Below are positions 6,302 to 64,000 of a DNA stretch of 64,000 nt, one piece after another (positions within the stretch are counted from its first letter, which is position 1; each line of letters starts with the position of its first letter). The notes under the pieces are model-generated. The model was not told the origin of the DNA. It worked only from the letters and a program-made list of their open reading frames with translations, and did no database searches. Made by a program: the position numbers and the translations under genes. The stretch spans positions 1,984,001 to 2,048,000 of the forward strand of contig JAGKQI010000049.1 in the NCBI GenBank assembly GCA_018806915.1, in the 5' to 3' direction. The stretch is from Phytophthora colocasiae (taxonomy: Eukaryota; Oomycota; Peronosporomycetes; Peronosporales; Peronosporaceae).

Positions 6302-8636
6302 TGGGGTGTTACGTACATCAAGGACAGGGAGACTACTGCTACTATATATTTCCAACGCGGATGAATGTTCATGCTAAGGTTCTTTAGGGCCCCCGATACC
6401 TAAAATAGACGCCCATATTAGGTCCTCGAACGTTGATATAGGGTCCTCAAAACGTCCAAAAACCCAAATATTTTTTTGTTGTTGTTTCATTCATTAACTA
6501 TTTTAGTTTTTTAGTACCACACTCTTAATTTTGGAAATCCCATACAAAAAAGCCATGTCAACTGCGGAGTCAAAACTGAGTGAAATCGGCCGTATATTGG
6601 AAAATGTATGACAGTACTCCCTTGTGATATAAACGAACGACTGAACCAGTTTTTTTAAACTCCTTCAATACTGAACTTCACTAAATGAAAAGTTGTGAGT
6701 GGAGTATTTCGACACAGGGAAGTTGATTGTGAGATCAGCATAAATGGGCTGATCATCTTTATTTTTAACTTCTTTAATACTACACGTCACTATACGAAAA
6801 TTGGTGAGGTACCGTATTTCGACACGGAGAGCATAATGGCGAGACTCACATGTGATATAAATAAGATAACCATCCTTAAAACGTCTCCGTGTTTAAAACT
6901 CCTTGTATAAGATAAAACTGACTTCAGGTGTTTAATCTGGCCGCCACACGGGACACCACAGGAAACAGTTTGAAAAGTACATTGCTTACATGTGCGTAAT
7001 AAAGGTACACTATCAAAAATGTCTCTTCTTTGAAAAATCCAGTATAAGATAATACTGACTTGAGATATAAGGTTTGGTAGTCACACAAGGCACCATTGGA
7101 AAGAGCATAAATAGGTACGTTAGATCCATCTATACAGATTTGATAGAGTGCAAGTCTAAATTGAGTTATGGTCGGTCAAAGGCGAGCTTTTGAAACGTCA
7201 CTTCAATGTTTAATAACTTTGTTAAAAAAAAAGGTTTGAGAGTGCTACCAAGTACTATCGTGTATAGAGTGAGAAATCATATTAGATACAGCTAAGTAGC
7301 GTTACCAACATTCAAGTCTAGTTGACATTACACCAGAAAGAGGGAAACGTTTTAAGCGGTAAGTGCAGTTAACTATTAGGTGAGTAGATTTGACTTAAAG
7401 TGGAATAAATTTGTCGGTACTTAACATATCGAATTACTGTTTCTTTCTATTATGTTGAGCGCAGCATTTCATGTTGAACCCATGTGAGTAGATTTAATGA
7501 GAGGCAGCAAGCTGTCATGGGTGACATGCGAACAGAGACCCGATTTCGCGTGGAGAGTTTCGAAACGATTCCTGGTATCTTCAACAGGAACTTCAACATC
7601 TTGAAACCAAGGAACTCGATGTTGATCAAGTTTTGGAATGGGCAGTCAACAACAACCTGTTCATTGGCAGAGGCACGGATCGCATCAGTCACAACAAGTA
7701 TGATGTCTTCAACATCTTGCTCAACGGATATGGTGTGTGGACACCCTTCAGCAAAAACGCGTTGAAGCCTTCTCCTCTACTGAACTCGCTACGTGCTACG
7801 TTTGTGATTGTTGGTGTCCTCGCACTAGGGGTTCGCCGAGTCGATGACGACGAAGATGAGGAGATGAAGGAGCTGGATGTGATTGAGCTCTCAACGACAT
7901 ACAGCGAGGAGTTGGACGTACAAGGCGATCGCGACCATGCCATTGACAGTGACACTACTGATCCGGATTATGTTTGCCGAACTTTCGAACACCTCGTTGT
8001 CACTTGAAGGGCCGTCGCTGGTATGTTTGCAAGAACAGCATCGGGAAATTGTAACGCGTCAAAGATCGAAAGAACGTCTGTGTGAAGTGGTGATGGAACG
8101 GTTCGGGGAGAACTGGTATGAGCACGTGGAGAAATTTTGTTGCTTGAGGCATCCCGTCATTTAGACAAGGTCTGGACGTCGTTGGTAGGTTTGGAGGAGA
8201 GTTTTTTAGCGTCTAAGGACAAAAAATAGGACAAAAAACTGCATGTATTAACGATCCGTTGTCTAAACTTTAAATAAAACACTCAAACTGGAATAACTTC
8301 ACTAATATTTCACATATGGAAATGCTACTTAGCATGATTATATAGCGCGTAAATTCTACTTTGAATCCATCTAAGTAGAACGAGGTGACTTTAACCCCCC
8401 CCGCACTCGCACGTTGTATATAACTACATGTTATGAAAAAGGTCCCCACATTTCAAAGATTTAAAAAATGTGTTTTTACTCTAACTGTGTTTGACCGACA
8501 CAGACGTGGTGACGTCGAATCCCACAGATCAGACCTTTGAAGGTCTACTGAGGCGAGGGTCTGGGCGGAAAGTACCATACCCGCCACAAGCATTCGATAT
8601 TAAGACGGATATAATAGGTGAAGGAATAAAGAAGTG
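6302..8636 (+). repeat. X1: left-truncated arm of the inverted array
   Basis: Similarity to the other arms begins at about 6302 (TGGGGTGTTACGTAC), matching position 23,224 within X3. The B-gene half and the minisatellite of the arm are therefore absent. The rest, including gene A, is nearly identical to X3, X5 and X7. The copia-1 target site is empty (AAGTG at 7398-7402). Confidence 0.9.
7452..8164 (+). pseudogene. Gene A, copy 1 (unknown protein, possible 52-nt intron, frame break)
   Basis: I propose exon 1 at 7452-7483 (ATG TTG AGC), an intron at 7484-7535 (GTGAGT to AACAG) and exon 2 from 7536 in frame to TGA at 8005-8007, giving about 167 residues. Exon 2 has a Gln/Leu/Glu-rich helical start, a hydrophobic stretch (SLRATFVIVGVLALGV) and then an acidic run with several consecutive Asp/Glu. 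From about 7982 the next frame carries a good-looking C-terminal part (including VVMERFGENWYEHVEKF) to TAG at 8162-8164. The original protein probably ran through both and lost its frame before the array amplified, since all copies show the same break. No family is recognised. Without the intron the coding start is unclear. Confidence 0.4.
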
Positions 8637-9265
8637 CAATCGACCCGGAGTTTTTGTATGGGATTTTATATTAAGGTTGATGACCGGCTATTCTCGACAT
8701 GCTACAGCACCTCCATGCTCTTAAAAGCCAACATTCGTTTAGTGAGCATTATTAACCATTTTAGCCAATCCATGAACGCTATTAGTTGCATTTTAGCTAA
8801 TAGATGTAGACCGGGACCATCGACTACGCGTCATGGAACCATCGACTTCATGCAAAACATGGCACAAAACTGTGATTTTGGGACCATCAGAGCCATCGAC
8901 TACGCTGTATTCGGCGTACTCTACGTCTAGTTGATAAAATAGAGTATTGATAAAGTAGAGTATAGGAAAAGTACGTTATTTACACCTTCTCTATATTTTT
9001 CCTACACTTGCTTTTCTACACTTTATACTTCGTACACTTTACTTACATTTTACTTTATTTAATTCGTTTTTTTTGCACACTTCTTCATACACTTCATTTG
9101 CAAACACTTTACTTTGTTTATTCTACCCCATACATACAATTTTGTACTCTTTTTCTTCACTCTACGTTTCATTGTTTACTCCACACACTACATTTCTGCA
9201 TTTCAACCATCCTAAAGTTTACACTCTACTTTTCTTTACACTTTCTAACTTCTTTTATTTTACCA
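8637..9265 (+). repeat. S1: junction spacer, plus orientation
   Basis: This unique-sequence spacer joins the A ends of X1 and X2. It begins CAATCGACCCGGAG and ends TTTTATTTTACCA. The first half contains three close copies of ACCATCGACT-type words. The last 265 bp or so of the top strand is almost free of G, with repeated TACACTTTA-like words. Open frames across it have no recognisable protein features. The inverted arm resumes at 9276 (CACTTCTTTATTCC). Confidence 0.85.
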
Positions 9266-9739
9266 TAATCCTTTTCACTTCTTTATTCCTTCACCTATTA
9301 TATCCGTCTTAATATCGAATGCTTGTGGCGGGTATGGTACTTTCCGCCCAGACCCTCGCCTCAGTAGACCTTCAAAGGTCTGATCTGTGGGATTCGACGT
9401 CACCACGTCTGTGTCGGTCAACACAGTTAGAGTAAAAACACATTTTTAAATCTTTGAAATGTGGGGACCTTTTCATAACATGTAGTTATATACAACGTGC
9501 GAGTGCGGGGGTTAAAGTCACCTCGTTCTACTTAGATGGATTCAAAGTAGAATTTACGCGCTATATAATCATGCTAAGTAGCATTTCCATATGTGAAATA
9601 TTAGTGAAGTTATTCCAGTTTGAGTGTTTTATTTAAAGTTTAGACAACGGATCGTTAATACATGCAGTTTTTTGTCCTATTTTTGTCCTTAGACGCTAAA
9701 AACTCTCCTCCAAACCTACCAACGACGTCCAGACCTTGT

Positions 9740-10453
9740 CTAAATGACGGGATGCCTCAAGCAACAAAATTTCTCCACGTGCTCATACCAGTTCTCCCCG
9801 AACCGTTCCATCACCACTTCACACAGACGTTCTTTCGATCTTTGACGCGTTACAATTTCCCGATGCTGTTCTTGCAAACATACCAGCGACGGCCCTTCAA
9901 GTGACAACGAGGTGTCTCGAAAGTTCGGCAAACATAATCCGGATCAGTAGTGTCACTGTCAATGGCATGGTCGCGATCGCCTTGTACGTCCAACTCCTCG
10001 CTGTATGTCGTTGAGAGCTCAATCACATCCAGCTCCTTCATCTCCTCATCTTCGTCGTCATCGACTCGGCGAACCCCTAGTGCGAGGACACCAACAATCA
10101 CAAACGTAGCACGTAGCGAGTTCAGTAGAGGAGAAGGCTTCAACGCGTTTTTGCTGAAGGGTGTCCACACACCATATCCGTTGAGCAAGATGTTGAAGAC
10201 ATCATACTTGTTGTGACTGATGCGATCCGTGCCTCTGCCAATGAACAGGTTGTTGTTGACTGCCCATTCCAAAACTTGATCAACATCGAGTTCCTTGGTT
10301 TCAAGATGTTGAAGTTCCTGTTGAAGATACCAGGAATCGTTTCGAAACTCTCCACGCGAAATCGGGTCTCTGTTCGCATGTCACCCATGACAGCTTGCTG
10401 TCTCTCATTAAATCTACTCACATGGGTTCAACATGAAATGCTGCGCTCAACAT
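9740..10453 (-). pseudogene. Gene A, copy 2 (extra frameshift)
   Basis: Layout is as in copy 1: ATG at 10451-10453, possible 52-nt intron, shared frame break. This copy alone has one extra base near 9914, which moves the first frame into a third frame ending after LKGRRWYVCKNSIGKL. Copia-1 is inserted about 40 bp upstream of its ATG. Confidence 0.4.
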
Positions 10454-10492
10454 AATAGAAAGAAACAGTAATTCGATAAATTTATTCCACTT

Positions 10493-10685
10493 TGTTGCAA
10501 GGGTGAAGCTGGAGTAGTTGAGGGGAAAGAAGAAGAAGAAGTTATGTTTTAGTGTTTAAACGTCAACGCAGTGGTGTGGGAACGACTGGTGGCTAAGAAC
10601 TACACTACTCTCTACTATTGTTATAGTGAGATCCACTATTATCTTGATAGAGAGGTTTTACTATGAAATGATTGCAACTTTAACA
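10493..10685 (-). repeat. Copia-1a 3' LTR (193 bp)
   Basis: The TG...CA ends are intact. It differs from the 5' LTR at a few positions (for example AGTG against AAAG near 10554), and the same 3'-specific variants occur in copy b. A purine-rich tract, GCAGGGAGG in element orientation, borders it on the pol side. It contains an imperfect 47-nt hairpin flanked by CTCTCTA and TAGAGAG. Confidence 0.95.
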
Positions 10686-10864
10686 GCCTCCCTGCATCAT
10701 TACATAGATGATCGACCTACGCAATTATTTAATTTGGTAGGTACTTGCGAACATAAGTAGTGCCCCCTCAGTCACACATTGCTCCACGTGGAAGCCAGCG
10801 TCCTGCAGCCATAGCTTGGCGCTGCCCTTGTTGTAGCGAAGTGAGGCTGGCGCTTGGCAAGCCA

Positions 10865-12268
10865 ATGGCACGCATTAGGGTGACTGGGATCACACGTGAG
10901 GAAGCGCTTCGGGGCACGCCGGCTCCTGGTACGAAAACCCAGAAGAAGAGTGAAGGCCCCGGACTGCTTCCAAGATTAGGGCACTCAAGCGGGCACGCAA
11001 GGCCGCGAGATGCACGCAGTCAGCAGCAGGAGACGCATCACACCACGGGGATCATGTTCGCATCGCTTCAGGGGATGGAGAGACGGCAGGAACGGTCTGC
11101 GGCACCGCTGACGAGGTGGAGCCGACCAGGGCGGAAGTGTGCAGTGCACATGTCACTAAAACGGGGGGAAATAGTGACACCATTGCTGCACCACGTGTCT
11201 CTGTCTGCACTGCTCAGTCTGTGGAGTCAGGCTGCACAACTTGGGTATGTTTGATTTGTACGTTTGTAAATACGGAGATTTCCGCCGCTTGCAAGAATTG
11301 CAAGTGCGCTCCTGCGACTTCTCGGACGGATCTGGCAACTGCTGCAACCGACTCAGCGGCTGCTGCAAACGACTCGGCGGCTGCTGCAACCGACTCCGCA
11401 GCTGCTGCTACCGACTCGGTGACTGCTGCAACAGACCAAGTATCTGCTGTTCTCGACCCTAGTGTGCCTGATAACGAGGTGATCTATTATCCGATCAATG
11501 GCAAATACTATGGCCTAAGTCGTGTGACCGTTTCCAATGGATATGCAACTACCAAGGCGAAGTGGAATGTTGCTCGCATCAACAACCGACGTGATGGAAA
11601 GTTTGGGCGTGAGTATCACGTGCTTTGGGCATTAAATGAAGTCGGAATTGGAAAGTACTACGTGGAGACTTGGGAGCCAATAGAGCAATTGTGTGAGGAT
11701 AATTTTAACGATGAAATGGATCTTGTGGATCGTTGGATAGCTTCGAAGATTGAACATTTCGAGCAATTTTGTAAGGGTGACACGTATGGAACATTTCTGC
11801 TGGGAGCTGATGGACAAAACCTGTGCATGTTTAATGCACTGAATCGCGCTGCTGAATTGGCTGGTCGTCCGGATATAATTACACAGCAGGAAATTGATGA
11901 TTTTTTGTTCAAGATGAGCTCAAGTTGAACCAAGTGGATCTTACTGAGGGAGCCACCTGGAAGACAGTGCTTCGGTTTCTTCGGCGCCTTCGTGATGATG
12001 GTCGCGATTTCAGATATAATGCTCTTACGAAGAAGAATTATCCGTTCCCGGTCGCCGTGGAGCACGTGTACTACAAGAACTCGATCTCGTGGATGGAATT
12101 TATCTGGTTGGCGCTTACAATCACAGCTTCGTCGGTCACTGCGTTGTGCTCACTGTTGAAGGTTCCAAGCGTACTATATACGACTCCGGCGACGGCAAGC
12201 CAATCTCGTCAGCGGCTCATTGGATCAATTTCTTCGCTTTCGTTCGTCCGTTCATCGTTTTCAAGTAG
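10865..12268 (+). pseudogene. Copia-1a accessory gene, antisense to pol: RanBP2 zinc finger, chromodomain-like, cysteine protease
   Basis: This gene lies between pol and the 3' LTR and is transcribed against the element. The first ATG (10865) opens a basic Arg/Lys-rich region. A RanBP2-type zinc finger follows at 11242-11301 (W-x-C-x2-C-x3-N-x6-C-x2-C, all positions present), then Ala/Thr/Asp/Ser repeats, then a chromodomain-like segment at about 11551-11740 (YHVLWALN, then TWEPIEQL). The C-terminal part has a cysteine box, GADGQNLCMF (Cys at 11824-11826), a histidine box, FVGHCVVL (His at 12137-12139), and a YDSGDG motif (Asp at 12182-12184), in the order of OTU or other papain-fold proteases. 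Three frame changes interrupt it: one near 10945, one in a T run near 11903, and one near 12070. The stop is TAG at 12266-12268. The domain calls are motif-based. Confidence 0.6.
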
Positions 12269-12507
12269 GTGATTGGAGTCGGTAGGGATTTCTGCAGGTT
12301 TGCCTTACTAATGATGAACCTTCCTAGCAAATCAGTGTTTGTGCATGGTTAAAATATTCTTGTGCCTGTAAAATTCGGTATGACACCAGGGAAACCTCAA
12401 CGAGGAAAAACCTTTTGCGATCAACAATAAAACCCAGTGGAAAAAAAAATCGCAGTACAATATAGGCACGCTTCATGCAATCGTTTCATTTATGTTTAAG
12501 TAGGATT

Positions 12508-15500
12508 CTACTCAGCTTTTAGGGAATCAATCCTTAGTTTCCTTCTTAGTTCTCTAAACTGATGCTTATCAAGAGCTTTTGTAAAAATGTCAGCAACCAT
12601 ATCTTTAGTGTTGCAGTACTCGACGCTGAATTCGTGTCGTTCAACTTTCTCCTGAACAAAGCAATATCTAATGTGGATATGCTTTGACCTCCCATGCATT
12701 TCAGGGTTGTAGGAGATTTTTATACAGCTCTGATTATCCTCGTAAATAATGTTGGCCTGCGTTGTAGCAAACCAAGTTCTCCTAAGAGTAGTTGGAGGAA
12801 TATCATTTCTTGCATACAATGGCACAGGGCGATATATTCTGCCTCTGTTGTTGACAGGACCACAGTGTGGTGTTTGCGTGAGAGCCATGAGATGGGACTA
12901 TTAGCGAGTGTAGTGACATAGCCTCCGACAGAACGTCTCGTGTCAGGGCAGTTAGCATAATCCGAGTCACTGTATGCCATGAGATGGTCAGCAAGATTAT
13001 CAGGGGTGGTGTCCCGTGAACCTCCCAGCATCAAACCGGTACCTGCAAGGTACTTTAGCCCTCGGATGACAGCATTCCTGTGATCCATTCCGGGATTCGC
13101 TAAAAATTGGCTAACTTCACGCATGTAAAATGCCATGTCGGGTCGAGTGCCTACCATCAGGTACATAACACTTCCGACAGCTTCACGATACGGAATGGCT
13201 TTCATCGCATCTTTTTCTGCCGCACGGAGAGTTTAGCATTCCGTTCTACTGGGGTTGCAATTGGATAAGGAATATATATTCGCTGAATCGGTCAATCACC
13301 TTCGTAGCATATTTGTGTTGGTGGATAAAGATCGTTCGGTTCTTGCGGTCACGTTGAATAGACCAGCCGAGTAAGTACTTCACCTCCCCTAAATCTGTCA
13401 TGGAGAACCTCTTTTTCAGGGCGGATTTAAGCTCACTGACGAGCGCTGGAGTTAGTGCAATAATCAGAAGATCATCGTACACGGCAATATAGCAGGTAAT
13501 GCCTTTCGTCGTGCGCTGGAAAACACAACTGTCCTTGAGGAGTTTGTGGAAGCCAAGACTGACAAGAAAAGCAGACAGCGTTTGATACCAGACACGGGGG
13601 GGGCTGCTTTAAACCGTATAGGCTTTTGAGCAGTTTGCACACGAGATGTTCCTTGCCCGGGATTGTGAATCCTTCCGGTTGAGCCATGTAGATGTCTTCC
13701 TCAAGAAAACCATTCAGGAAATTCAAGATCCAGCAAGGATGCGATCGTAAGCAGTAGTCGTAGTACTTCCATCCTGATAAAGGGGAAAATATTTCATTGT
13801 AATCAATGCCATGGCGTTGTAGAAAACCTTTGATCACCAGGCGAGCTTTAAAGCGATCAATTGCGCATGTTCCGGTGTACTTAACGACGAAAACCCAGCG
13901 GCTAGTAAGAATTTTTCGTCCCTTCGGCGGGGGTACTAGAATCCATGTGTTGTTGTCCATGAGAGACTTGTATTCTGAGTTGGCAGCTTTTCGCCACTGA
14001 TTTGCATGAGAAGACCTCATTGCTTCTTTATACGTAATGGGTTCAGACACATACCGAATAGCTAGTAGTGTGTAGAGTAGCTCTCTGCGTTGTCCCTGTT
14101 CTTTGATGTCCTCCGCAGCATCAAGCCGTACATTTGTCGTGGCCAAGCGGGGGCGTTTGCGGGAAGGAGACACTGGTGAGCCAGGTGTTAGCTCAGTTCG
14201 GAAAGAGTGAATGACATCGGTCTCAGTCGCGTCTCGGAGCAAGGGTGGTTGGTGCTGAGACTGAACAGTCGGAGCAGACTGTGGTTGAGGCAGAGGTGTA
14301 GGAGCAAGGTGGTGCGTTTGCTCTCGTTGTGTTAGGCGACGAGTCGTCGTCTTGTCAGCTAGAGAGGGGAATTCGTCCTCTTTAAAAATGACATCACGAC
14401 TGTACACGATAGCATGTGTGTTAATGTCCAGTAACCGAAAGCCTTTCTTGTGATCGGGGATGCCAAGATACATGCACAGACGTGCACGGGCATCAAGCTT
14501 GTCGCGGTATTGCTCCGTAATGTGGACATATGCACTGCATCAAAATACCTTAATATAATCCATGGATGGGATACGGTTGTACCATAGTTCGTGGGGTGTA
14601 CGACCATCAGTTTTGGGAGCACGGCGTCATATTAATCAGTGTAGTCACATGACAGATACATTCTGCCCAAAGCTGTTTGGGAAGGTTGCCATCCAACAGT
14701 AGGGCTCGAACACGTTCCAAGATTGTTCGGTTTCTGTCGTTCAGCAACACCATTCTGCTGAGGTGTATAAGCATTCGTGAACTGGGCATGCGTACCATAC
14801 TTATTAAAGATCAAACGACCCAGTTTCTCATATTCCTTAGCATTATCCGCTTGCAGCACCCGGATTTCTTCATCATCGATGTGCTGGCGGCGCCATTCAA
14901 GAACTTGGACATCCTTTCTAAAGATGTTCAGAGCCTTCTTTCTAAAAATCTTCGTAGCACGCAAACAGATCACTACGGGCTTTAAGCGGGTACGTAAACA
15001 TATATTGAGAGAAGTCATCGATAAAGATCACAAAGTAACGACAACCAGTAAGGCTAGGTACAGGTAATGGACCACAAATGTCGGAATGGACTTTGCCCAA
15101 GGGCGATGTAGCACGTTCAACAATTATATTAGAGTAGAAAGGGGAGCGGTGAGACTTCGCTAACGTGCAGGCAACACAGAAGAAATCTGCTGGCGGCGTT
15201 ACAGACGCGGTTCCGTCAAGTCCATGAATGGAAAGCTTCCTAGATAAATAACGCAAAGTGCGAGCGTTAGGATGGCCAAGACGTTTGTGTAATAGCAGAA
15301 AAGATCGTTGCTTACCTTTAGCTATGAGTGCCGTAGAGGTGGCCTTTGGTTGGGCGTAGAACTGGTATAGATCCGTAGTAGTAGCCATGGGAGCTTTAAT
15401 GCTGAGGCGCCGGTCAGTATGCATGGTGCATTTCTTGCGGTCAAAGTTGAAGCGGAAGTTATGCTTAACAGCTGCCGGGACTGAAAGTAAACTGAAGTGC

Positions 15501-17128
15501 AGTTGTGGCGCGTACAGTACACCCTGGAGAGACATCGTCTGAGAGTTGCCCTTAGAGTCGAGTACTTCCAGGTCGACGCGTCCAATGCCTTCAATCGGGA
15601 TTTGGTTTTTACCGCCGACTGTGATGGACCCACCACTGGTGGTTATATCAGTAAACCATTGGGACTCGTGCGTTACGTGACGCGTACACCCAGAGTCTAT
15701 GGTCCATGTAGGATCCAGTTGAACGTTGGCCTGAGCCGAGAGGCTTACAGGTGAGTTGACTGTCGTAGCAACCGCTATTAAACCCACGTCACGGCGCTCT
15801 TGGTGAAACACCTTACGGGTGCTGCCATGGACTGCTACCTCACCGTCGGAATCCGACTGAAGGGGGCATGATTTGGATTGGTCGTGGTCACGATGTTGAC
15901 TATGACTGTTTCGTTTAGAGGCAGCACCTCCCCTGTTTCGCTGATCACGGCGATCGGAGCTGTCGTGATCGCGGTTATTGGTGGTGCGCCCACGGTCTCG
16001 AGAGTTGTTGTGGGTGTTGCGGTACGGATGAGTACGCTGCGTACTCCCACCTTTGAAAGCAAAGTTGGCTGGGAGTACAGTACCAGCCTTGACACGACCG
16101 TCTCGTAGGTCCTTTTGCAAGCCACGACACAGGCGAATGTTGTGACGAGGCCGATCACAGTACGAACAGACATTGCTAGAGGTAGGACTCGAAGCCGTGG
16201 TCACCGGAGCAGCTGCGACGAGAGCGCGCTCATTCTTGGTTGCTGTCGTTTCCGGGGTTCCTTTCGATAGCGTGTACCGTTCTTGGGCTTGAAGGTCACG
16301 GACCTTGCCCTCGATGCTTTGCTTTAGATCCTCATACGGGATATACTTCCGCTGGCTCTTCCAAATGCGAAGGTCATTCTTCCAGGACTTGGGCATGGAA
16401 TGGAACAGGTAGATTGACTTCTGTCCTTCCGTCATCACCGATTCGGTGGCCTCTTCTGGGGCTTTCATCGCATTCTCCAGCTTGAGGAAGAACTCTGTTA
16501 AGTTACTCCCTTCGTGGTACTTGATTTCCATCAAGTAGTGCTGGATGAAGTAGGGGTCGCCATGAAAAGCTGCACCCTCGTACTTCTTGCAGATGAAAGA
16601 GAAGATTTCGTAGGACGTCGTGAGATTGCGAACCAGACGAACATGCCTGGTGGTCTTCACCAGGAACGCCTTCGTCTTGGCCTCCTTGCGGCGTCGCTCA
16701 TACTGACTGAGAGGTTGGGGCTTCTCCTTAACAACACGTTTCTTGGTTTTGGTAGCTTGGTGGCGGTTGAAGGGGCGGATGGTGGGCAGATTCTTGCGCT
16801 TAGTAGCGGTGTCGGATTCCTCATCGGAGTCCTCCTCAGAACCCGAGGTTGGCTTCAGTTCTTCATCACTTTCGTCAAAGTCCACCGCGTCGGAGTCGAT
16901 TTCGAGGGTCGTCGCTGGCTTGCGCCTTGGCTTGTCATCGACGTCAGACATGTCGCCATCGCTTTCTTCCGTTTCATCCTCCGAGATTCCATCGTAGTCC
17001 GGTTTCTTCACGAAGCCGAGGAGATGTTTCCCGTCGAGAGATGCGCATACACGAGTCTTCCACACGTCGAAGTTTTCAGCACCGACGAGGCGTGGAAAGT
17101 CATCGTTCGAGGCGTGACTTGGGCTCAT
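12508..17128 (-). pseudogene. Copia-1a gag-pol polyprotein, broken
   Basis: From ATG at 17126-17128 one frame runs 728 codons to 14942. It covers gag, a CCHC knuckle (CSYC...H...C, CX2CX4HX4C), protease (WTIDSGCTRHVTH), the H-H-C-C zinc region (LLHKRLGHPN, CVAC) and the first integrase Asp (HSDICGP). Extra bases in homopolymers near 14945, 14740 and 14620 then break the frame, while copy b is intact there. Shared with copy b are a TGA replacing the Gly after IKVF (near 14540), a deletion of the conserved stretch before LNGFLEED in reverse transcriptase (near 13720), and a break before the RNase H end. The reverse transcriptase core reads VYDD rather than the usual YVDD. RNase H ends in a recognisable DIFTKAL block. 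The product could not function. Confidence 0.9.
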
Positions 17129-23040: not shown

Positions 23041-23050
23041 AGGCGATGAA

Positions 23051-26521: not shown

Positions 26522-26537
26522 TTGTAACATTTCAAGT

Positions 26538-31309: not shown

Positions 31310-31315
31310 TGGGAG

Positions 31316-42207: not shown

Positions 42208-42223
42208 TTGTAACATTTCAAGT

Positions 42224-46995: not shown

Positions 46996-47001
46996 TGGGA
47001 G

Positions 47002-53749: not shown

Positions 53750-54413
53750 GTACTGAAGCGGGTAGCTTAGCAAGTTAGACTAGTTGCGTACTTTTTCCCA
53801 TACTGTTTGTTGAGGTAGCCATTTTACTATGGTACAGTGTACCCCAGAGCTGATCTGTAAACCTGTCTAAGCTGCTACACTTGACTTAAGCATAACTATA
53901 GAAGGAGTCATAATAAGCTCCTTCTCCCTCTTCACTTCGTCTTTTGACGGCCACTAAGCACTTCTCTTCTTCAATACACACCACCACCAGTATTCTGGTC
54001 ACTCCTAAAGCTAAGTATCTCTTTATTATGTACTCATCAACACACGTTCCATTCTGTCCTAAATACCTCTCTCATCTAATTTCTATTCTGTTAATATAGG
54101 GGCTTGGTACGGACGTGTCCGAGGGCTTGACTTTTCGGAAAGACGTGTCGCGGACCTAAACTAGTGAGTTTGGAGCTACCTAAAATTATTAATTTTGGGT
54201 TTTCGTCATTTCCGGAGTCCAAACAGCGTGAGTGAAAAAAATAGTTGGCTTGAAAATGTATGACTGTACTCTCATGTCGTATAGACGGTCCAATCAGCCA
54301 ATTTTCAAAACTTCGTCAATACTTCACTTCACTGTACGAAAATTTGTGAGGTGGGGTATTTCGACACGGGGAAGATGATGGTAAGCCTCCCATATGACAT
54401 AGACAGGCGATGA

Positions 54414-54540
54414 ACCAGTGTACCATGTACCTATGTACCCATGTACTCATGTTCCTGTGTACCATGTACCAGTGTACCATGTACCCATGTACCTGTGTAT
54501 AATGTATTAATGTACCCTTGTACCATGCACCAGTGTACCG
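54414..54540 (+). repeat. Minisatellite of X7 (short variant)
   Basis: Same arrangement as X3 and X5. Confidence 0.85.
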
Positions 54541-55688
54541 TAAAAATCGGATTCCGCTCAGAGGTAAAAAGACTGCCTCTAAAATAAATGGGGTGTTACG
54601 TACATCAAGGACAGGGAGACTACTGCTACTATATATATTTCCAACGCGGATGAATGTTCATGCTAAGGTTCTTTAGGGCCCCCGATACCTAAAATAGACG
54701 CCCATATAAGGTCCTCGAACGTTGATATAGGGTCCTCAAAACGTCCAAAAACCCAAATATTTTTTTGTTGTTGTTTCATTCATTAACTATTTTAGTTTTT
54801 TAGTACCACTATATAATTTTGGAAATCCCATACAAAAAAGCCATGTCAACTGCGGAGTCAAAACTGAGTGAAATCGGCCGTATATTGGAAAATGTATGAC
54901 AGTACTCCCTTGTGATATAAACGAACGACTGAACCAGTTTTTTAAACTCCTTCAATACTGAACTTCACTAAATGAAAAGTTGTGAGTGGAGTATTTCGAC
55001 ACAGGGAAGTTGATTGTGAGATCAGCATAAATGGGCTGATCATCTTTATTTTTAACTTCTTTAATACTACACGTCACTATACGAAAATTGGTGAGGTACC
55101 GTATTTCGACACGGAGAGCATAATGGCGAGACTCACATGTGATATAAATAAGATAACCATCCTTAAAACGTCTCCGTGTTTAAAACTCCTTGTATAAGAT
55201 AAAACTGACTTCAGGTGTTTAATATGGCCGCCACACGGGACACCACAGGAAACAGTTTGAAAAGTACATTGCTTACATGTGCGTAATAAAGGTACACTAT
55301 CAAAAATGTCTCTTCTTTGAAAAATCCAGTATAAGATAATACTGACTTGAGATATAAGGTTTGGTAGTCACACAAGGCACCATTGGAAAGAGCATAAATA
55401 GGTACGTTAGATCCATCTATACAGATTTGATAGAGTGCAAGTCTAAATTGAGTTATGGTCGGTCAAAGGCGAGCTTTTGAAACGTCACTTCAATGTTTAA
55501 TAACTTTGTAAAAAAAAAGGTTTGAGAGTGCTACCAAGTACTATCGTGCATAGAGTGAGAAATCATATTAGATACAGCTAAGTAGCGCAACCAACATTCA
55601 AGTCTAGTTGACGTTACACCAGAAAGAGGGAAACGTTTTAAGCGGTAAGTACAGCTAACTATTAGGTGAGTAGAATTGACTTAAAGTG

Positions 55689-55881
55689 TGTTAAAGTTGC
55701 AATCATTTCATAGTAAAACCTCTCTATCAAGATAATAGTGGATCTCACTATAACAATAGTAGAGAGTAGTGTAGTTCTTAGCCACCAGTCATTCCCACAC
55801 CACTGCGTTGACGTTTAAACTTTAAAACATAACTTCTTCTTCTTCTTTCCCCTCAACTACTCCAGCTTCACCCTTGCAACA
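55689..55881 (+). repeat. Copia-1b 5' LTR (193 bp)
   Basis: Ends TG...CA. An imperfect hairpin at 55720-55766 pairs CTCTCTA with TAGAGAG and ATAGTG with CACTAT. Confidence 0.95.
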
Positions 55882-55903
55882 GGTCATGAGCCCAAGTCAC
55901 GCC
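55882..55903 (+). promoter_or_regulatory. Copia-1b primer binding site (tRNA-Met anticodon arm)
   Basis: GGTCATGAGCCCAAG starts directly after the LTR. It contains the gag ATG (55886-55888), which pairs with the CAT anticodon. Confidence 0.65.
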
Positions 55904-58900
55904 TCGAACGATGACTTTCCACGCCTCGTCGGTGCTGAAAACTTCGACGTGTGGAAGACTCGTGTATGCGCATCTCTCGACGGGAAACATCTCCTCGGCT
56001 TCGTGAAGAAACCGGACTACGATGGAATCTCGGAGGATGAAACGGAAGAAAGCGATGGCGACATGTCTGACGTCGATGACAAGCCAAGGCGCAAGCCAGC
56101 GACGACCCTCGAAATCGACTCCGACGCGGTGGACTTTGACGAAAGTGATGAAGAACTGAAGCCAACCTCGGGTTCTGAGGAGGACTCCGATGAGGAATCC
56201 GACACCGCTACTAAGCGCAAGAATCTGCCCACCATCCGCCCCTTCAACCGCCACCAAGCTACCAAAACCAAGAAACGTGTTGTTAAGGAGAAGCCCCAAC
56301 CTCTCAGTCAGTATGAGCGACGCCGCAAGGAGGCCAAGACGAAGGCGTTCCTGGTGAAGACCATGGACAACACGCATGTTCGTCTGGTTCGCAATCTCAC
56401 GACGTCCTACGAAATCTTCTCTTTCATCTGCAAGAAGTACGAGGGTGCAGCTTTTCATGGCGACCCCTACTTCATCCAGCACTACTTGATGGAAATCAAG
56501 TACGACGAAGGGAGTAACTTAACAGAGTTCTTCCTCAAGCTGGAGAATGCGATGAAAGCCCCAGAAGAGGCCACCGAATCGGTGATGACGGAAGGACAGA
56601 AGTCAATCTACCTGTTCCATTCCATGCCCAAGTCCTGGAAGAATGACCTTCGCATTTGGAAGAGCCAGCGGAAGTATATCCCGTATGAGGATCTAAAGCA
56701 AAGCATCGAGGGCAAGGTCCGTGACCTTCAAGCCCAAGAACGGTACACGCTATCGAAAGGAACCCCGGAAACGACAGCAACCAAGAATGAGCGCGCTCTC
56801 GTCGCAGCTGCTCCGGTGACCACGGCTTCGAGTCCTACCTCTAGCAATGTCTGTTCGTGGTTTGGTGATCGGCCTCGTCACAACATTCGCCTGTGTCGTG
56901 GCTTGCAAAAGGACCTACGAGACGGTCGTGTCAAGGCTGGTACTGTACTCCCAGCCAACTTTGCTTTCAAAGGTGGGAGTACGCAGCGTACTCATCCGTA
57001 CCGCAACACCCACAACAACTCTCGAGACCGTGGGCGCACCACCAATAACCGCGATCACGACAGCTCCGATCGCCGTGATCAGCGAAACAGGGGAGGTGCT
57101 GCCTCTAAACGAAACAGTCATAGTCAACATCGTGACCACGACCAATCCAAATCATGCCCCCTTCAGTCGGATTCCGACGGTGAGGTAGCAGTCCATGGCA
57201 GCACCCGTAAGGTGTTTCACCAAGAGCGCCGTGACGTGGGTTTAATAGCGGTTGCTACGACAGTCAACTCACCTGTAAGCCTCTCGGCTCAGGCCAACGT
57301 TCAACTGGATCCTACATGGACCATAGACTCTGGGTGTACGCGTCACGTAACGCACTAGTCCCAATGGTTTACTGATATAACCACCAGTGGTGGGTCCATC
57401 ACAGTCGGCGGTAAAAACCAAATCCCGATTGAAGGCATTGGACGCGTCGACCTGGAAGTACTCGACTCTAAGGGCAACTCTCAGACGATGTCTCTCCAGG
57501 GTGTACTGTACGCGCCACAACTGCACTTCAGTTTACTTTCAGTCCCGGCAGCTGTTAAGCATAACTTCCGCTTCAACTTTGACCGCAAGAAATGCACCAT
57601 GCATACTGACCGGCGCCTCAGCATTAAAGCTCCCATGGCTACTACTACGGATCTATACCAGTTCTACGCCCAACCAAAGGCCACCTCTACGGCACTCATA
57701 GCTAAAGGTAAGCAACGATCTTTTCTGCTATTACACAAACGTCTTGGCCATCCTAACGCTCGCACTTTGCGTTATTTATCTAGGAAGCTTTCCATTCATG
57801 GACTTGACGGAACCGCGTCTGTAACGCCGCCAGCAGATTTCTTCTGTGTTGCCTGCACGTTAGCGAAGTCTCACCGCTCCCCTTTCTACTCTAATATAAT
57901 TGTTGAACGTGCTACATCGCCCTTGGGCAAAGTCCATTCCGACATTTGTGGTCCATTACCTGTACCTAGCCTTACTGGTTGTCGTTACTTTGTGATCTTT
58001 ATCGATGACTTCTCTCAATATATGTTTACGTACCCGCTTAAAGCCCGTAGTGATCTGTTTGCGTGCTACGAAGATTTTAGAAAGAAGGCTCTGAACATCT
58101 TTAGAAAGGATGTCCAAGTTCTTGAATGGCGCCGCCAGCACATCGATGATGAAGAAATCCGGGTGCTGCAAGCGGATAATGCTAAGGAATATGAGAAACT
58201 GGGTCGTTTGATCTTTAATAAGTATGGTACGCATGCCCAGTTCACGAATGCTTATACACCTCAGCAGAATGGTGTTGCTGAACGACGAAACCGAACAATC
58301 TTGGAACGTGTTCGAGCCCTACTGTTGGATGGCAACCTTCCCAAACAGCTTTGGGCAGAATGTATCTGTCATGTGACTACACTGATTAATATGACGCCGT
58401 GCTCCAAAACTGATGGTCGTACACCCCACGAACTATGGTACAACCGTATCCCATCCATGGATTATATTAAGGTATTTTGATGCAGTGCATATGTCCACAT
58501 TACGGAGCAATACCGCGACAAGCTTGATGCCCGTGCACGTCTGTGCATGTATCTTGGCATCCCCGATCACAAGAAAGGCTTTCGGTTACTGGACATTAAC
58601 ACACATGCTATCGTGTACAGTCGTGATGTCATTTTTAAAGAGGACGAATTCCCCTCTCTAGCTGACAAGACGACGACTCGTCGCCTAACACAACGAGAGC
58701 AAACGCACCACCTTGCTCCTACACCTCTGCCTCAACCACAGTCTGCTCCGACTGTTCAGTCTCAGCACCAACCACCCTTGCTCCGAGACGCGACTGAGAC
58801 CGATGTCATTCACTCTTTCCGAACTGAGCCAACACCTGGCTCACCAGTGTCTCCTTCCCGCAAACGCCCCCGCTTGGCCACGACAAATGTACGGCTTGAT

Positions 58901-60514
58901 GCTGCGGAGGACATCAACGAACAGGGACAACGCAGAGAGCTACTCTACACACTACTAGCTATTCGGTATGTGTCTGAACCCATTACGTATAAAGAAGCAA
59001 TGAGGTCTTCTCATGCAAATCAGTGGCGAAAAGCTGCCAACTCAGAATACAAGTCTCTCATGGACAACAACACATGGATTCTAGTACCCCCGCCGAAGGG
59101 ACGAAAAATTCTTACTAGCCGCTGGGTTTTCGTCGTTAAGTACACCGGAACATGCGCAATTGATCGCTTTAAAGCTCGCCTGGTGATCAAAGGTTTTCTA
59201 CAACGCCATGGCATTGATTACAATGAAATATTTTCCCCTGTTATCAGGATGGAAGTACTACGACTACTGCTTACGATCGCATCCTTGCTGGATCTTGAAT
59301 TTCCTGAATGGTTTTCTTGAGGAAGACATCTACATGGCTCAACCGGAAGGATTCACAATCCCGGGCAAGGAACATCTCGTGTGCAAACTGCTCAAAAGCC
59401 TATACGGTTTAAAGCAGCCCCCCCCCGTGTCTGGTATCAAACGCTGTCTGCTTTTCTTGTCAGTCTTGGCTTCCACAAACTCCTCAAGGACAGTTGTGTT
59501 TTCCAGCGCACGACGAAAGGCATTACCTGCTATATTGCCGTGTACGATGATCTTCTGATTATTGCACTAACTCCAGCGCTCGTCAGTGAGCTTAAATCCG
59601 CCCTGAAAAAGAGGTTCTCCATGACAGATTTAGGGGAGGTGAAGTACTTTCTCGGCTGGTCTATTCAACGTGACCGCAAGAACCGAACGATCTTTATCCA
59701 CCAACACAAATATGCTACGAAGGTGATTGACCGATTCAGCGAATATATATTCCTTATCCAATTGCAACCCCAGTAGAACGGAATGCTAAACTCTCCGTGC
59801 GGCAGAAAAAGATGCGATGAAAGCCATTCCGTATCGTGAAGCTGTCGGAAGTGTTATGTACCTGATGGTAGGCACTCGACCCGACATGGCATTTTACATG
59901 CGTGAAGTTAGCCAATTTTTAGCGAATCCCGGAATGGATCACAGGAATGCTGTCATCCGAGGGCTAAAGTACCTTGCAGGTACCGGTTTGATGCTGGGAG
60001 GTTCACGGGACACCACCCCTGATAATCTTGCTGACCATCTCATGGCATACAGTGACTCGGATTATGCTAACTGCCCTGACACGAGACGTTCTGTCGGAGG
60101 CTATGTCACTACACTCGCTAATAGTCCCATCTCATGGCTCTCACGCAAACACCACACTGTGGTCCTGTCAACAACAGAGGCAGAATATATCGCCCTGTGC
60201 CATTGTATGCAAGAAATGATATTCCTCCAACTACTCTTAGGAGAACTTGGTTTGCTACAACGCAGGCCAACATTATTTACGAGGATAATCAGAGCTGTAT
60301 AAAAATCTCCTACAACCCTGAAATGCATGGGAGGTCAAAGCATATCCGCATTAGATATTGCTTTGTTCAGGAGAAAGTTGAACGACACGAATTCAGCGTC
60401 GAGTACTGCAACACTAAAGATATGGTTGCTGACATTTTTACAAAAGCTCTTGATAAGCATCAGTTTAGAGAACTAAGAAGGAAACTAAGGATTGATTCCC
60501 TAAAAGCTGAGTAG
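55886..60514 (+). pseudogene. Copia-1b gag-pol polyprotein, broken
   Basis: Gag begins at ATG 55886. Compared with copy a, this copy keeps six extra bases near 56362, but its zinc knuckle is ruined (CSWFGD in place of CSYCD near 56856). It also has a private nonsense codon, TAG at 57356-57358, 21 bp after the protease DSG (57327-57335). The integrase part (57488-58480) is intact here, with HSDICGP, LQADNAKEY and QQNGVAERRN. The TGA at 58478-58480, the reverse transcriptase deletion near 59300 and the break near 60290 are shared with copy a. The C run near 59418 has nine bases, against eight in copy a and the seven the frame requires. RNase H ends at 60514. Confidence 0.9.
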
Positions 60515-60751
60515 AATCCTACTTAAACATAAATGAAACGATTGCATGAAGCGTGCCTATATTGTACTGCGATTTTTTTCCACTGGGTTTTATTGTTGAT
60601 CGCAAAAGGTTTTTCCTCGTTGAGGTTTCCCTGGTGTCATACCGAATTTTACAGGCACAAGAATATTTTAACCATGCACAAACACTGATTTGCTAGGAAG
60701 GTTCATCATTAGTAAGGCAAACCTGCAGAAATCCCTACCGACTCAAATCAC

Positions 60752-62152
60752 CTACTTGAAAACGATGAACGGACGAACGAAAGCGAAGAAATTGATCCAA
60801 TGAGCCGCTGACGAGATTGGCTTGCCGTCGCCGGAGTCGTATATAGTACGCTTGGAACCTTCAACAGTGAGCACAACGCAGTGACCGACGAAGCTGTGAT
60901 TGTAAGCGCCAACCAGATAAATTCCATCCACGAGATCGAGTTCTTGTAGTACACGCGCTCCACGGCGACCGGGAACGGATAATTCTTCTTCGTAAGAGCA
61001 TTATATCTGAAATCGCGACCATCATCACGAAGGCGCCGAAGAAACCGAAGCACTGTCTTCCAGGTGGCTCCCTCAGTAAGATCCACTTGGTTCAACTTGA
61101 GCTCATCTTGAACAAAAAATCATCAATTTCCTGCTGTGTAATTATATCCGGACGACCAGCCAATTCAGCAGCGCGATTCAGTGCATTAAACATGCACAGG
61201 TTTTGTCCATCAGCTCCCAGCAGAAATGTTCCATACGTGTCACCCTTACAAAATTGCTCGAAATGTTCAATCTTCGAAGCTATCCAACGATCCACAAGAT
61301 CCATTTCATCGTTAAAATTATCCTCACACAATTGCTCTATTGGCTCCCAAGTCTCCACGTAGTACTTTCCAATTCCGACTTCATTTAATGCCCAAAGCAC
61401 GTGATACTCACGCCCAAACTTTCCATCACGTCGGTTGTTGATGCGAGCAACATTCCACTTCGCCTTGGTAGTTGCATATCCATTGGAAACGGTCACACGA
61501 CTTAGGCCATAGTATTTGCCATTGATCGGATAATAGATCACCTCGTTATCAGGCACACTAGGGTCGAGAACAGCAGATACTTGGTCTGTTGCAGCAGTCA
61601 CCGAGTCGGTAGCAGCAGCTGCGGAGTCGGTTGCAGCAGCCGCCGAGTCGTTTGCAGCAGCCGCTGAGTCGGTTGCAGCAGTGGCCAGATCCGTCCGAGA
61701 AGTCGCAGAAGCGCACTTGCAATTCTTGCAAGCGGCGGAAATCTCCGTATTTACAAACGTACAAATCAAACATACCCAAGTTGTGCAGCCTGACTCCACA
61801 GACTGAGCAGTGCAGACAGAGACACGTGGTGCAGCAATGGTGTCACTATTTCCCCCGTTTTAGTGACATGTGCACTGCACACTTCCGCCCTGGTCGGCTC
61901 CACCTCGTCAGCGGTGCCGCAGACCGTTCCTGCCGTCTCTCCATCCCCTGAAGCGATGCGAACATGATCCCCGTGGTGTGATGCGTCTCCTGCTGCTGAC
62001 TGCGTGCATCTCGCGGCCTTGCGTGCCCGCTTGAGTGCCCTAATCTTGGAAGCAGTCCGGGGCTTCCTCTTCTTCTGGGTTTTCGTACCAGGAGCCGGCG
62101 TGCCCCGAAGCGCTTCCTCACGTGTGATCCCAGTCACCCTAATGCGTGCCAT
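60752..62152 (-). pseudogene. Copia-1b accessory gene, antisense to pol: RanBP2 zinc finger, chromodomain-like, cysteine protease
   Basis: Copy of the gene at 10865-12268 with the same domains. The basic N-terminus from ATG 62152 is in frame here, whereas copy a has small insertions there. One G is missing from a run near 61852, which copy a has. So each copy is intact where the other is broken over the N-terminal half, showing that a continuous frame existed. The breaks in the T run near 61117 and before the histidine box are shared. The stop is at 60752-60754. The 237 bp between the end of pol and this gene hold no recognised feature. Confidence 0.6.
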
Positions 62153-62331
62153 TGGCTTGCCAAGCGCCAGCCTCACTTCGCTACAACAAGGGCAGCGCCA
62201 AGCTATGGCTGCAGGACGCTGGCTTCCACGTGGAGCAATGTGTGACTGAGGGGGCACTACTTATGTTCGCAAGTACCTACCAAATTAAATAATTGCGTAG
62301 GTCGATCATCTATGTAATGATGCAGGGAGGC

Positions 62332-62524
62332 TGTTAAAGTTGCAATCATTTCATAGTAAAACCTCTCTATCAAGATAATAGTGGATCTCACTATAACAAT
62401 AGTAGAGAGTAGTGTAGTTCTTAGCCACCAGTCGTTCCCACACCACTGCGTTGATGTTTAAACACTAAAACATAACTTCTTCTTCTTCTTTCCCCTCAAC
62501 TACTCCAGCTTCACCCTTGCAACA
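62332..62524 (+). repeat. Copia-1b 3' LTR (193 bp)
   Basis: Preceded by the purine tract GCAGGGAGG and a pyrimidine. It carries the 3'-specific variants CACTAAAAC and CAGTCGTTCC seen in copy a. Confidence 0.95.
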
Positions 62525-62578
62525 AAGTGGAATAAATTTGTCGGTACTTAACATATCGAATTACTGTTTATTTCTATT

Positions 62579-63291
62579 ATGTTGAGCGCAGCATTTCATG
62601 TTGAACCCATGTGAGTAGATTTAATGAGAGACAGCAAGCTGTCATGGGTGACATGCGAACAGAGACCCGATTTCGCGTGGAGAGTTTCGAAACGATTCCT
62701 GGTATCTTCAACAGGAACTTCAACATCTTGAAACCAAGGAACTCGATGTTGATCAAGTTTTGGAATGGGCAGTCAACAACAACCTGTTCATTGGCAGAGG
62801 CACGGATCGCATCAGTCACAACAAGTATGATGTCTTCAACATCTTGCTCAACGGATATGGTGTGTGGACACCCTTCAGCAAAAACGCGTTGAAGCCTTCT
62901 CCTCTACTGAACTCGCTACGTGCTACGTTTGTGATTGTTGGTGTCCTCGCACTAGGGGTTCGCCGAGTCGATGACGACGAAGATGAGGAGATGAAGGAGC
63001 TGGATGTGATTGAACTCTCAACGACATACAGCGAGGAGTTGGACGTACAAGGCGATCGCGACCATGCCATTGACAGTGACACTACTGATCCGGATTATGT
63101 TTGCCGAACTTTCGAACACCTCGTTGTCACTTGAAGGGCCGTCGCTGGTATGTTTGCAAGAACAGCATCGGGAAATTGTAACGCGTCAAAGATCGAAAGA
63201 ACGTCTGTGTGAAGTGGTGATGGAACGGTTCGGGGAGAACTGGTATGAGCACGTGGAGAAATTTTGTTGCTTGAGGCATCCCGTCATTTAG
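62579..63291 (+). pseudogene. Gene A, copy 7
   Basis: ATG at 62579-62581, 54 bp after the end of copia-1. Same layout as copy 1 with one substitution (GAACTC against GAGCTC near 63012). Confidence 0.4.
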
Positions 63292-63773
63292 ACAAGGTCT
63301 GGACGTCGTTGGTAGGTTTGGAGGAGAGTTTTTAGCGTCTAAGGACAAAAAATAGGACAAAAAACTGCATGTATTAACGATCCGTTGTCTAAACTTTAAA
63401 TAAAACACTCAAACTGGAATAACTTCACCAATATTTCACATATGGAAATGCTACTTAGCATGATTATATAGCGCGTAAATTCTACTTTGAATCCATCTAA
63501 GTAGAACGAGGTGACTTTAACCCCCCCCCGCACTCGCACGTTGTATATAACTACATGTTATGAAAAAGGTCCCCACATTTCAAAGATTTAAAAAATGTGT
63601 TTTTACTCTAACTGTGTTTGACCGACACAGACGTGGTGACGTCGAATCCCACAGATCAGACCTTTGAAGGTCTACTGAGGCGAGGGTCTGGGCGGAAAGT
63701 ACCATACCCGCCACAAGCATTCGATATTAAGACGGATATAATAGGTGAAGGAATAAAGAAGTGAAAAGGATTA

Positions 63774-64000
63774 TGGTAAAATAAAAGAAGTTAGAAAGTG
63801 TAAAGAAAAGTAGAGTGTAAACTTTAGGATGGTTGAAATGCAGAAATGTAGTGTGTGGAGTAAACAATGAAACGTAGAGTGAAGAAAAAGAGTACAAAAT
63901 TGTATGTATGGGGTAGAATAAACAAAGTAAAGTGTTTGCAAATGAAGTGTATGAAGAAGTGTGCAAAAAAAACGAATTAAATAAAGTAAAATGTAAGTAA
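63774..64000 (-). repeat. S7: junction spacer, minus orientation, cut by the window edge
   Basis: Starts TGGTAAAATAAAAG directly after the A-side tail of X7 and continues to the window end. It is the mirror of S1 (9039-9265), so another inverted arm is expected to the right. Confidence 0.85.

Follow-up and report, generated by a model that had tools for sequence, protein, structure and literature searches.

A strictly alternating inverted array beside a chromosome end of Phytophthora colocasiae, probably formed by inverted recombination

Organization of the array

The window analyzed here is a stretch of 64,000 nucleotides from the 92.5-Mb genome assembly of P. colocasiae. Its self-alignment, together with that of a 144-kb sequence (40 kb added per side), reveals an array of inverted repeats in the assembled sequence. 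The repeated unit X of 4.4 kb is composed of two parts, B (21141-23225) and A (23225-25562). Eight such arms, strictly alternating in orientation, are separated by seven spacers S of ~632 bp. Arms 1 and 8 consist of the A part only. From the left, the layout reads F (1840-6301) A1 S1 A2'B2' S2 B3A3 S3 A4'B4' S4 and, in the right half, B5A5 S5 A6'B6' S6 B7A7 S7 A8' F' (66739-70608). The features are:

1840..6301, + strand: flank F, left copy; mirrored outside the window at 66739-70608
6302..8639, + strand: arm 1, A part only
8640..9272, + strand: spacer S1, A-A type
9273..20509, - strand: arm 2 (A'B'), interrupted by Copia2
10479..17325, - strand: Copia2 inside arm 2, flanked by a 5-bp target duplication (AAGTG); mirror arm 7 holds its twin (55689-62523)
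20510..21140, + strand: spacer S2, B-B type
21141..25562, + strand: arm 3 (B3A3), uninterrupted; reference copy of X
25563..31771, + strand: spacer S3, A-A type, containing Copia1 (26141-31698)
31772..36198, - strand: arm 4
36199..36829, - strand: spacer S4, B-B type, on which the mirror symmetry is centred
36830..41247, + strand: arm 5
41248..47454, + strand: spacer S5, A-A type, containing the Copia1 twin (41827-47384)
47455..51876, - strand: arm 6
51877..52507, + strand: spacer S6, B-B type
52508..63763, + strand: arm 7 (B7A7), with the Copia2 twin inserted at 55689-62523
63764..64000, - strand: start of spacer S7, A-A type, running on to 64401 outside the window

Past S7 follow arm 8 (64402-66738), F' (66739-70608), a telomere-associated (TAS) unit (~70609-72545) and a satellite of ~824 bp from 72557, which is also found on contig C2.

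An earlier note on this DNA had counted seven strictly alternating arms in at least 57 kb of nested palindromes from 6302 onward. The alternation and the palindrome stand, but the count becomes eight because arm 8 lies outside the window, and the symmetry is wider. It spans 1840 to ~70608 (69 kb) and overshoots the window by 6.6 kb. In the 144-kb self-alignment, 1840-5037 mirrors 70608-67410 at 99.8% and 5625-20509 mirrors 67415-52508 at 99.1%. With random orientations, strict alternation of eight arms would have a probability of 2/256. The path through these ~5-kb repeats, mostly >98% alike, is the assembler's, and the array is known as assembled sequence.

The spacers are oriented + + + - + + - from S1 to S7. 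The expected spacer of about 0.63 kb is indeed present at both A-A and B-B junctions, but its length is not constant, as S3 and S5 each carry a Copia element of 5.56 kb. The head-to-head duplication is centred on a single non-palindromic spacer, as in U-type exchange or a breakage-fusion-bridge cycle.

Divergence of the copies

The arms had appeared nearly identical; they are close, but not exact duplicates. Substitutions between copies amount to 0.09-1.6% in A and 0.1-0.7% in B, and X2 and X7 carry a 6.8-kb Copia insertion. The two flanks F and F' differ by 5 substitutions in 3868 positions (0.13%). Arm A2 is the outlier, with 31-37 substitutions relative to all other A copies and 37/2288 relative to its mirror partner A7. 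Judged from the sequence, this would need a divergent or converted tract, and it counts against the origin favored below.

The spacers fall into two groups. The A-A spacers (S1, S3, S5 and S7) share two bases that differ from those on contig C20, while the B-B spacers (S2, S4 and S6) share three such bases. S2, S4 and S6 are identical, and S1 and S7 show no substitutions between them. The spacers at the two kinds of junction form separate lineages.

Insertions and coding content

Copia1 (in S3 and S5) and Copia2 (in X2 and X7) occupy mirror-image places, and the Copia1 copies contain one LTR difference that is identical in both. The left flank F carries a 596-bp element (~5035-5630) with terminal inverted repeats of ~28 bp, which the right copy lacks. 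Three of the four Copia pieces scanned match RVT_2, SH3_retrovirus or rve in Pfam, and one Copia piece has its best named protein relatives in Phytophthora. Four array ORFs and two flank ORFs gave no Pfam match, and the window gave no Rfam match at gathering scores. For the 232-aa ORF of B, no relative was found at E<=0.001 among 431 candidates, so no gene function is argued for X.

Alternating inverted units are the expected product of hairpin-ended replicons, rolling-hairpin replication or double rolling-circle amplification, which the earlier note had listed. That the array is extrachromosomal or derived in this manner is nevertheless hardly credible here. It lies within a contig of 2.09 Mb (C50), copies at 99-100% occur on this contig alone among the genome matches listed, and the ten ORFs scanned contain no replication or recombinase domain other than those of Copia.

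Genomic setting at a chromosome end

The array is located ~34 kb from the end of its contig, beside TAS repeats. Sequences related to X or to the TAS unit are found at the telomere-bearing starts of contigs C3, C6 and C20, within ~280 bases of the end of C52 and elsewhere in the genome. In having relatives next to telomere-bearing contig ends, the array sequence agrees with a subtelomeric TAS repeat family. The last 999 bases of C50 contain no telomere repeats.

The two outer borders of the array differ. At the left border (1840), C20 is colinear across the breakpoint (1196-2719, 92%), whereas F' halts at this very point. On the right, F' stops at 70608 and is followed by a TAS unit that agrees in head motif and orientation with copies adjoining other contig ends. 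A distal breakpoint with chromosome-end sequence beyond it is what U-type exchange or a breakage-fusion-bridge cycle leaves behind.

TAS units are headed by the telomere-like motif TTAGGGTTTAGGGTTCCTA. The motif at 70608 has 21 sites in the genome (<=2 mismatches), 14 of them placed at TAS units: nine, 70608 included, open a stretch matching the TAS unit, and five more, on C43, lie ~95 bp ahead of a TAS-like stretch, as at 70608. One of the other seven sites marks the outer end of the array's own TAS unit. Telomere healing of a broken end at 70608 was considered and dropped, since a motif that recurs in this manner and heads other TAS units makes the tract no proof of healing by telomerase.

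The undisrupted locus and the joints of the array

Contig C20, which begins with telomere repeats, retains an undisrupted A-S-B locus in the order B'-S-A'. The B'|S continuity is found again in the TAS copies of C20 and C52, and a relic at -14735 on C50 preserves the S|A continuity. The joints A|S and S|B, however, are new. In a genome-wide search with 20-base words (<=1 mismatch), A|S occurs at four sites and S|B at three, all of them in the array. The B-side break is at the same base in both new joints (TTCG^CAATCGA), while the A-side breaks (ACCA^ and ^CACTTC) are 10 bp apart. The joints show 0-1 bp of microhomology, and the two ends of S, CAATCGA and TTTTACCA, do not form an inverted repeat.

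Since S natively lay between A and B, its presence at both kinds of junction is accounted for. The claim that this presence goes beyond independent fold-backs is borne out by the order on C20 and by the reciprocal joints. S|B cannot be obtained from A|S by homologous exchange, and we therefore infer that both joints date from one event. A|S and S|B would then be the crosswise-rejoined ends of two breaks, in a single reciprocal event.

Replication template switching at short inverted repeats, by ODIRA or hairpin fold-back and independently at each junction, yields the same head-to-head and tail-to-tail geometry, and the accessible parts of PMC10766186 and PMC4981268 document it for inverted amplification. 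For this array it is very unlikely. The loop is ~632 bp, the microhomology is 0-1 bp, and two separate fold-backs would need to coincide to the base on one side and to within 10 bp on the other. At the S borders of C20, no linking inverted word >=5 bp was found within 20 bp, although random placements contain one by chance in 76% of cases.

A misjoin in the assembly graph is a somewhat more serious, though still improbable, alternative. Two chromosome ends or haplotypes with F-A-S could have been joined through the repeat; the symmetry around S4 would then be false and the A-S-A' and B'-S-B joints real. The array is repetitive and near a contig end, F and F' differ by just 0.13%, and the right side is a chromosome-end unit followed by satellite, in a contig without telomere repeats in its final 999 bases. 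Against this, the new joints lie at identical breakpoints across all seven copies and are found nowhere else, and the copies are not exact duplicates but carry private substitutions and junction-specific S lineages. Homology between the halves also ends at 1840/70608, where the left side continues colinear with C20.

Proposed origin of the array

The array probably is a chromosomal, chromosome-end structure that arose by inverted (U-type) recombination rather than a replicon, being founded by a two-break event and then amplified. In the first step, as deduced from the joints, the B|S and S|A borders of an ancestral A-S-B would have been cut once each and the ends rejoined crosswise, yielding A-S-A' and B'-S-B junctions together, each with one whole S. 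This may have proceeded by staggered breakage of two chromatids (sister or homologous), by inversion of S in place and exchange with an uninverted S, or by inversion of an S-X-S segment within an older direct repeat. In the second step, as indicated by the S lineages, the palindromic dimer [X, S(A-A type), X', S(B-B type)] would have been amplified as a unit. Thereafter, a sister-chromatid exchange between inverted arms may have generated a large and presumably dicentric inverted duplication. Its bridge would have broken in F', whose broken end now bears a standard chromosome-end TAS unit. Lastly, recombination between flanking arms would flip spacers, whose orientation would therefore no longer follow the mirror symmetry. 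In this scheme, the dicentric stage, the breakage and the point at which capping took place are inferred.

This origin is favored because of the C20 order, the reciprocal breakpoints, the array-only joints and the junction-specific S lineages. It is further favored because F/F', Copia2 (X2/X7) and Copia1 (S3/S5) are in mirror places with a shared LTR difference, and because C20 is colinear past 1840 while F' stops and meets a TAS unit. The earlier argument that head-to-head and tail-to-tail alternation demands inverted exchange, with breakage-fusion cycles among the options, agrees with it.

The spacer pairs S2/S6 and S3/S5 count against this origin, as they are in direct rather than mirror orientation. 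To accommodate this, one has to assume either two flips or that X3-S3-X4-S4 was later duplicated directly. The substitutions do not choose between the two: the summed A+B differences are 27 for the mirror pairs (A3/A6, B3/B6, A4/A5, B4/B5) and 24 for the direct pairs (A3/A5, B3/B5, A4/A6, B4/B6). Nor do they choose whether the palindrome centre was always S4 or was first a Copia1-bearing spacer.

A plain local history without a dicentric is the least unlikely of the alternatives. Here, a direct duplication to A-S-B-A-S-B would be followed by a single ordinary inversion of S-X-S; the ~10-kb dimer would then have multiplied by unequal crossing-over, and the flank would have undergone an inverted duplication of its own. 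Reasoning from the joints, S-X-S inversion in a direct repeat gives exactly those observed. The B|A joint inside X (23225) resembles a direct-duplication joint, and the 15-kb blocks X3-S3-X4 and X5-S5-X6 are in direct orientation at 99.5%. On its own, however, such a history leaves unexplained the outer position of F', the mirror placement of Copia2 and the termination of F' where a chromosome-end unit follows.

Under the favored U-type origin, the array records to the base how an inverted chromosome-end array started, namely in a single reciprocal event with two breaks around a 632-bp segment. This start can be read since C20 retains the A-S-B locus undisrupted. The array also indicates that no special replicon is needed for the same spacer to occupy both head-to-head and tail-to-tail junctions, and suggests that chromosome ends of a Phytophthora-type genome may evolve by breakage, inverted exchange and capping. 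More speculatively, and with little likelihood, X and S may act as mutual inverted repeats: recombination between X arms would flip S, and recombination between opposite S copies would flip X. The array would hence be a self-perpetuating hotspot of inversion and chromosome fusion at a Phytophthora-type end, with spacer orientation and arm number still changing between nuclei. If so, it could seed further breakage-fusion cycles and end-to-end exchange.

Comparison with known systems

No oomycete report of such an array was found in the titles and abstract openings of the literature covered, which was partial. A hairpin-ended or rolling-hairpin replicon differs from the array, as the unit is neither terminal nor extrachromosomal but ~34 kb inside the contig end. 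In contrast to double rolling-circle (2-micron-like) systems, the spacer ends are without inverted-repeat recombination sites. Subtelomeric TAS or Y'-like arrays (yeast) consist of units joined head-to-tail at short telomere-like tracts. The array has such tracts near chromosome ends in common with them, but alternates strictly instead.

The accessible parts of PMC10766186 and PMC4981268 describe junctions at inverted repeats of 5-6 bp with loops of 40-80 bp, for ODIRA, or at short inverted repeats of eroding ends; the 632-bp loop and 0-1 bp microhomology of the array do not fit this pattern. A known system with two inverted junctions and an inverted middle copy has both features in common with the array, but, as far as its accessible description goes, the array differs in joints without short inverted repeats, a long shared loop and reciprocal breakpoints.

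An 'inv dup del' is an inverted duplication with terminal deletion and telomere capture. The array is similar in its inverted duplication and its distal arm, cut short and ending at a chromosome-end unit. INV-DUP-DEL and telomere-deletion classes are named in the accessible part of PMC10766186; relative to the former, the array has nested palindromes with four arms per side instead of one fold-back, and its capping is a presumed step.

Also close are the breakage-fusion-bridge cycles and inverted-repeat sister-chromatid exchanges in Zymoseptoria tritici (PMC3681731) and Candida albicans (PMC7371428). As far as the accessible parts of these papers describe them, they resemble the array in inverted exchange between sister chromatids at inverted repeats, a dicentric intermediate, large palindromes and a stepwise gain of inverted copies. 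Unlike in these fungal cases, the chromosome-end repeat itself is amplified, one spacer is in both kinds of junction, and the array is known from an assembly rather than followed in progeny, with founding breakpoints that can be read to the base.

Layout of the array

Self-comparison of the window and its flanks recovered eight arms in strictly alternating orientation, with seven copies of a ~632-bp spacer (S) between them, one at every junction. The earlier note had read this alternation correctly. The array it described is present in the assembled sequence, but its size was understated, as all of it lies within mirror-symmetric sequence spanning 1840-70608. The outermost arms consist of A parts only and are bordered by mirror copies of a flank, F and F', giving the overall order F [A S A' B' S B]x3 A S A' F' (prime: inverted copy; arms X and spacers S are numbered from left to right). 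The genome assembly comprises 105 contigs (92.5 Mb). The window is C50:1984001-2048000 in a contig of 2,088,399 bases, and coordinates below 0 or above 64000 lie on C50 outside it. The right border of the palindrome (70608) is ~34 kb from the contig end.

Main features of the array and its flanks
1840-6301 and 66739-70608: flanks F and F'
21141-23225: B part of a full arm X
23225-25562: A part of the same arm
36199-36829: spacer S4, centre of the mirror symmetry
26141-31698 (in S3) and 41827-47384 (in S5): Copia1, 5558 bp, mirror-image places
arms X2 and X7: Copia2, ~6.8 kb, mirror-image places
5035-5630: 596-bp element, ~28-bp terminal inverted repeats, inserted at TTA/TA in left F only
72557-104399: tandem array of a ~824-bp satellite, to the tip of C50

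The 596-bp element has two near-full and twelve partial copies elsewhere in the genome, all at 99%. Since it is present in the left F alone, its insertion was probably later than the mirror duplication. Among named proteins, those most similar to a Copia piece come from Phytophthora (P. palmivora 88%, P. megakarya 87%, P. cactorum 83%), which makes the host Phytophthora-like. Copia1 is flanked by an apparent direct repeat of ~16-18 bp of S sequence, far longer than the 5 bp observed for Copia2. A 232-aa open frame is also present in two B copies (21687-22385 in X3, 19265-19963 in X2), for which no Pfam match and no relative were found.

Native locus and proposed founding event

One undisrupted locus with the order B'-S-A' is found on C20, a contig with telomere repeats at its start; its matched parts are 94-97% identical to the array. 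The locus is not pristine: ~2 kb splits its A', and the B side is partly interrupted or absent. The relative order of F and A also differs between C20 and C50. The adjacency of B' and S recurs in copies of a telomere-associated repeat unit (TAS) on C20 and C52, and that of S and A in a relic on C50 at -14735. These adjacencies place the native site of S, as judged from sequence, at the border of A and B.

Left of the window, a partial A copy (-1629..-469) is 99% like the array, and the S-A relic (-14846..-14610) is 94% like C20. Both may be signs of further chromosome-end rearrangement. On C94 (331995-340714), part of A is found as an 85% relative in five head-to-tail copies at ~2045-bp spacing.

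Each junction of the array has one native and one new side. At A-A junctions (S flanked by A parts) the S-A side is native, and in the new joint the A end ...AAGAAGTG is fused to the B-side end of S (CAATCGA). At B-B junctions the B'-S side is native, and the S end ...TTTTACCA is fused to CGAAGCC of B. In a whole-genome search with 20-base words (at most 1 mismatch), the new A-to-S joint was found at 4 sites and the new S-to-B joint at 3, all inside the array. The B-side cut is identical in both (TTCG^CAATCGA), and the A-side cuts, ACCA^ and ^CACTTC, lie 10 bp (TAATCCTTTT) apart. The two joints would therefore be the crosswise-rejoined ends of one break pair, with a 10-bp loss. Microhomology is 0-1 bp, and within 20 bp of both S borders of the C20 copy no linking inverted word of at least 5 bp was found. 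Homologous exchange between A-S-A' and A-S-B should be unable to yield the S-to-B joint, so neither joint would derive from the other.

The joints thus argue that the array was founded by one reciprocal two-break event. Together with a native S between A and B, this answers a puzzle raised earlier, namely the presence of S at both kinds of junction. Three histories could lie behind the event: staggered breaks on two chromatids followed by sister (or homologue) union; an S that was inverted in place and then underwent exchange with an uninverted copy; or an S-X-S segment that was inverted inside a direct repeat. Identical joint letters are expected from all three routes.

Copy divergence and growth

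The array copies are no trivial duplicates. Substitutions number 5/3868 between F and F', 8/5557 between the Copia1 copies and 18/6824 between the Copia2 copies. The A copies show 2-37 differences per 2286-2336 bases (28 pairs) and the B copies 2-15 per ~2080 bases (15 pairs). The palindromic array at this chromosome end looks real; the main remaining doubt is that the assembly path through S4 may join the wrong halves.

The seven spacers form two lineages, split by junction type. Relative to the C20 copy, S1, S3, S5 and S7 (A-A) have two departing bases in common, and S2, S4 and S6 (B-B) have three. The latter are identical to each other, while S1 and S7 show zero substitutions and two gap openings. 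The A-A and B-B junctions therefore have separate histories, and the amplified unit would thus be a palindromic dimer, not a single arm. A2 carries 31-37 substitutions relative to each of the seven other A copies. As these are mostly clustered and not common to its mirror partner A7, the arms likely exchange sequence by gene conversion.

Sister-chromatid exchange within the inverted B'-S-B (or A-S-A') region would leave the overall order given above, in which F' forms the far side. The S1/S7 pair is mirrored, but S2/S6 and S3/S5 (with Copia1) are direct. Two later spacer flips between inverted arms could account for this. Alternatively, the palindrome may first have been centred on the Copia1-bearing spacer, after which X3-S3-X4-S4 was directly duplicated, with one flip. 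The direct copies of this 15-kb block are 99.5% identical; the summed A and B substitutions (27 for mirror pairs, 24 for direct pairs) give no choice between the two views.

The chromosome end

C20 is colinear with the left copy across 1840 (C50 1196-2719, 92%), the point at which F' ends. Directly beyond F' follows TAGGGTTTAGGGTTCCTA. The telomere-like motif TTAGGGTTTAGGGTTCCTA (at 70608 and 72541 on C50) has 21 sites genome-wide with at most 2 mismatches, and at least 9 of these, including the palindrome border, head a TAS-matching stretch. Five more, on C43, lie ~95 bp ahead of a TAS-like stretch. At six sites the base preceding TAGGG is not T, as though telomere tracts had linked TAS units to different DNA.

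TAS relatives occur on many contigs, several near contig ends:
C20, from 327
C22, from 323
C3, from 278
C52, to ~280 bases from the contig end

Among the matches listed, telomere repeats lie at the starts of C3, C6 and C20. Exact telomere words of at least 11 bases occur in 144 kb only at ~70608 and 72542, both ends of the TAS unit. As TAS relatives adjoin other contig ends and the motif heads TAS units, the inverted copy is bordered on its outer side by a chromosome-end unit in normal orientation. The satellite (copies ~98% alike) starts right after the telomere-like tract; no telomere repeat was found in the last 999 bases of C50. It also occurs at C2:41176-47187, on a telomere-bearing contig (one of 21 candidates scored).

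Comparison with known systems

The hairpin or rolling-circle replicons named in the earlier note do not fit, as the array lies inside a 2.09-Mb contig and no such gene was found in the ORFs scanned. Neither does ODIRA, for which PMC10766186 gives an expectation of 5-6 bp inverted repeats and 40-80 bp loops. No comparable array in an oomycete appeared among the titles and abstract openings of the literature searched. Zymoseptoria (PMC3681731) and Candida (PMC7371428) provide described cases of inverted exchange at long inverted repeats that passes through a dicentric, and chromosome-end palindromes after telomere loss are described for budding yeast (PMC4981268). For their own system, the authors of the yeast study favour short-inverted-repeat synthesis over sister-chromatid fusion. 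The array belongs to an already known class of rearrangement.
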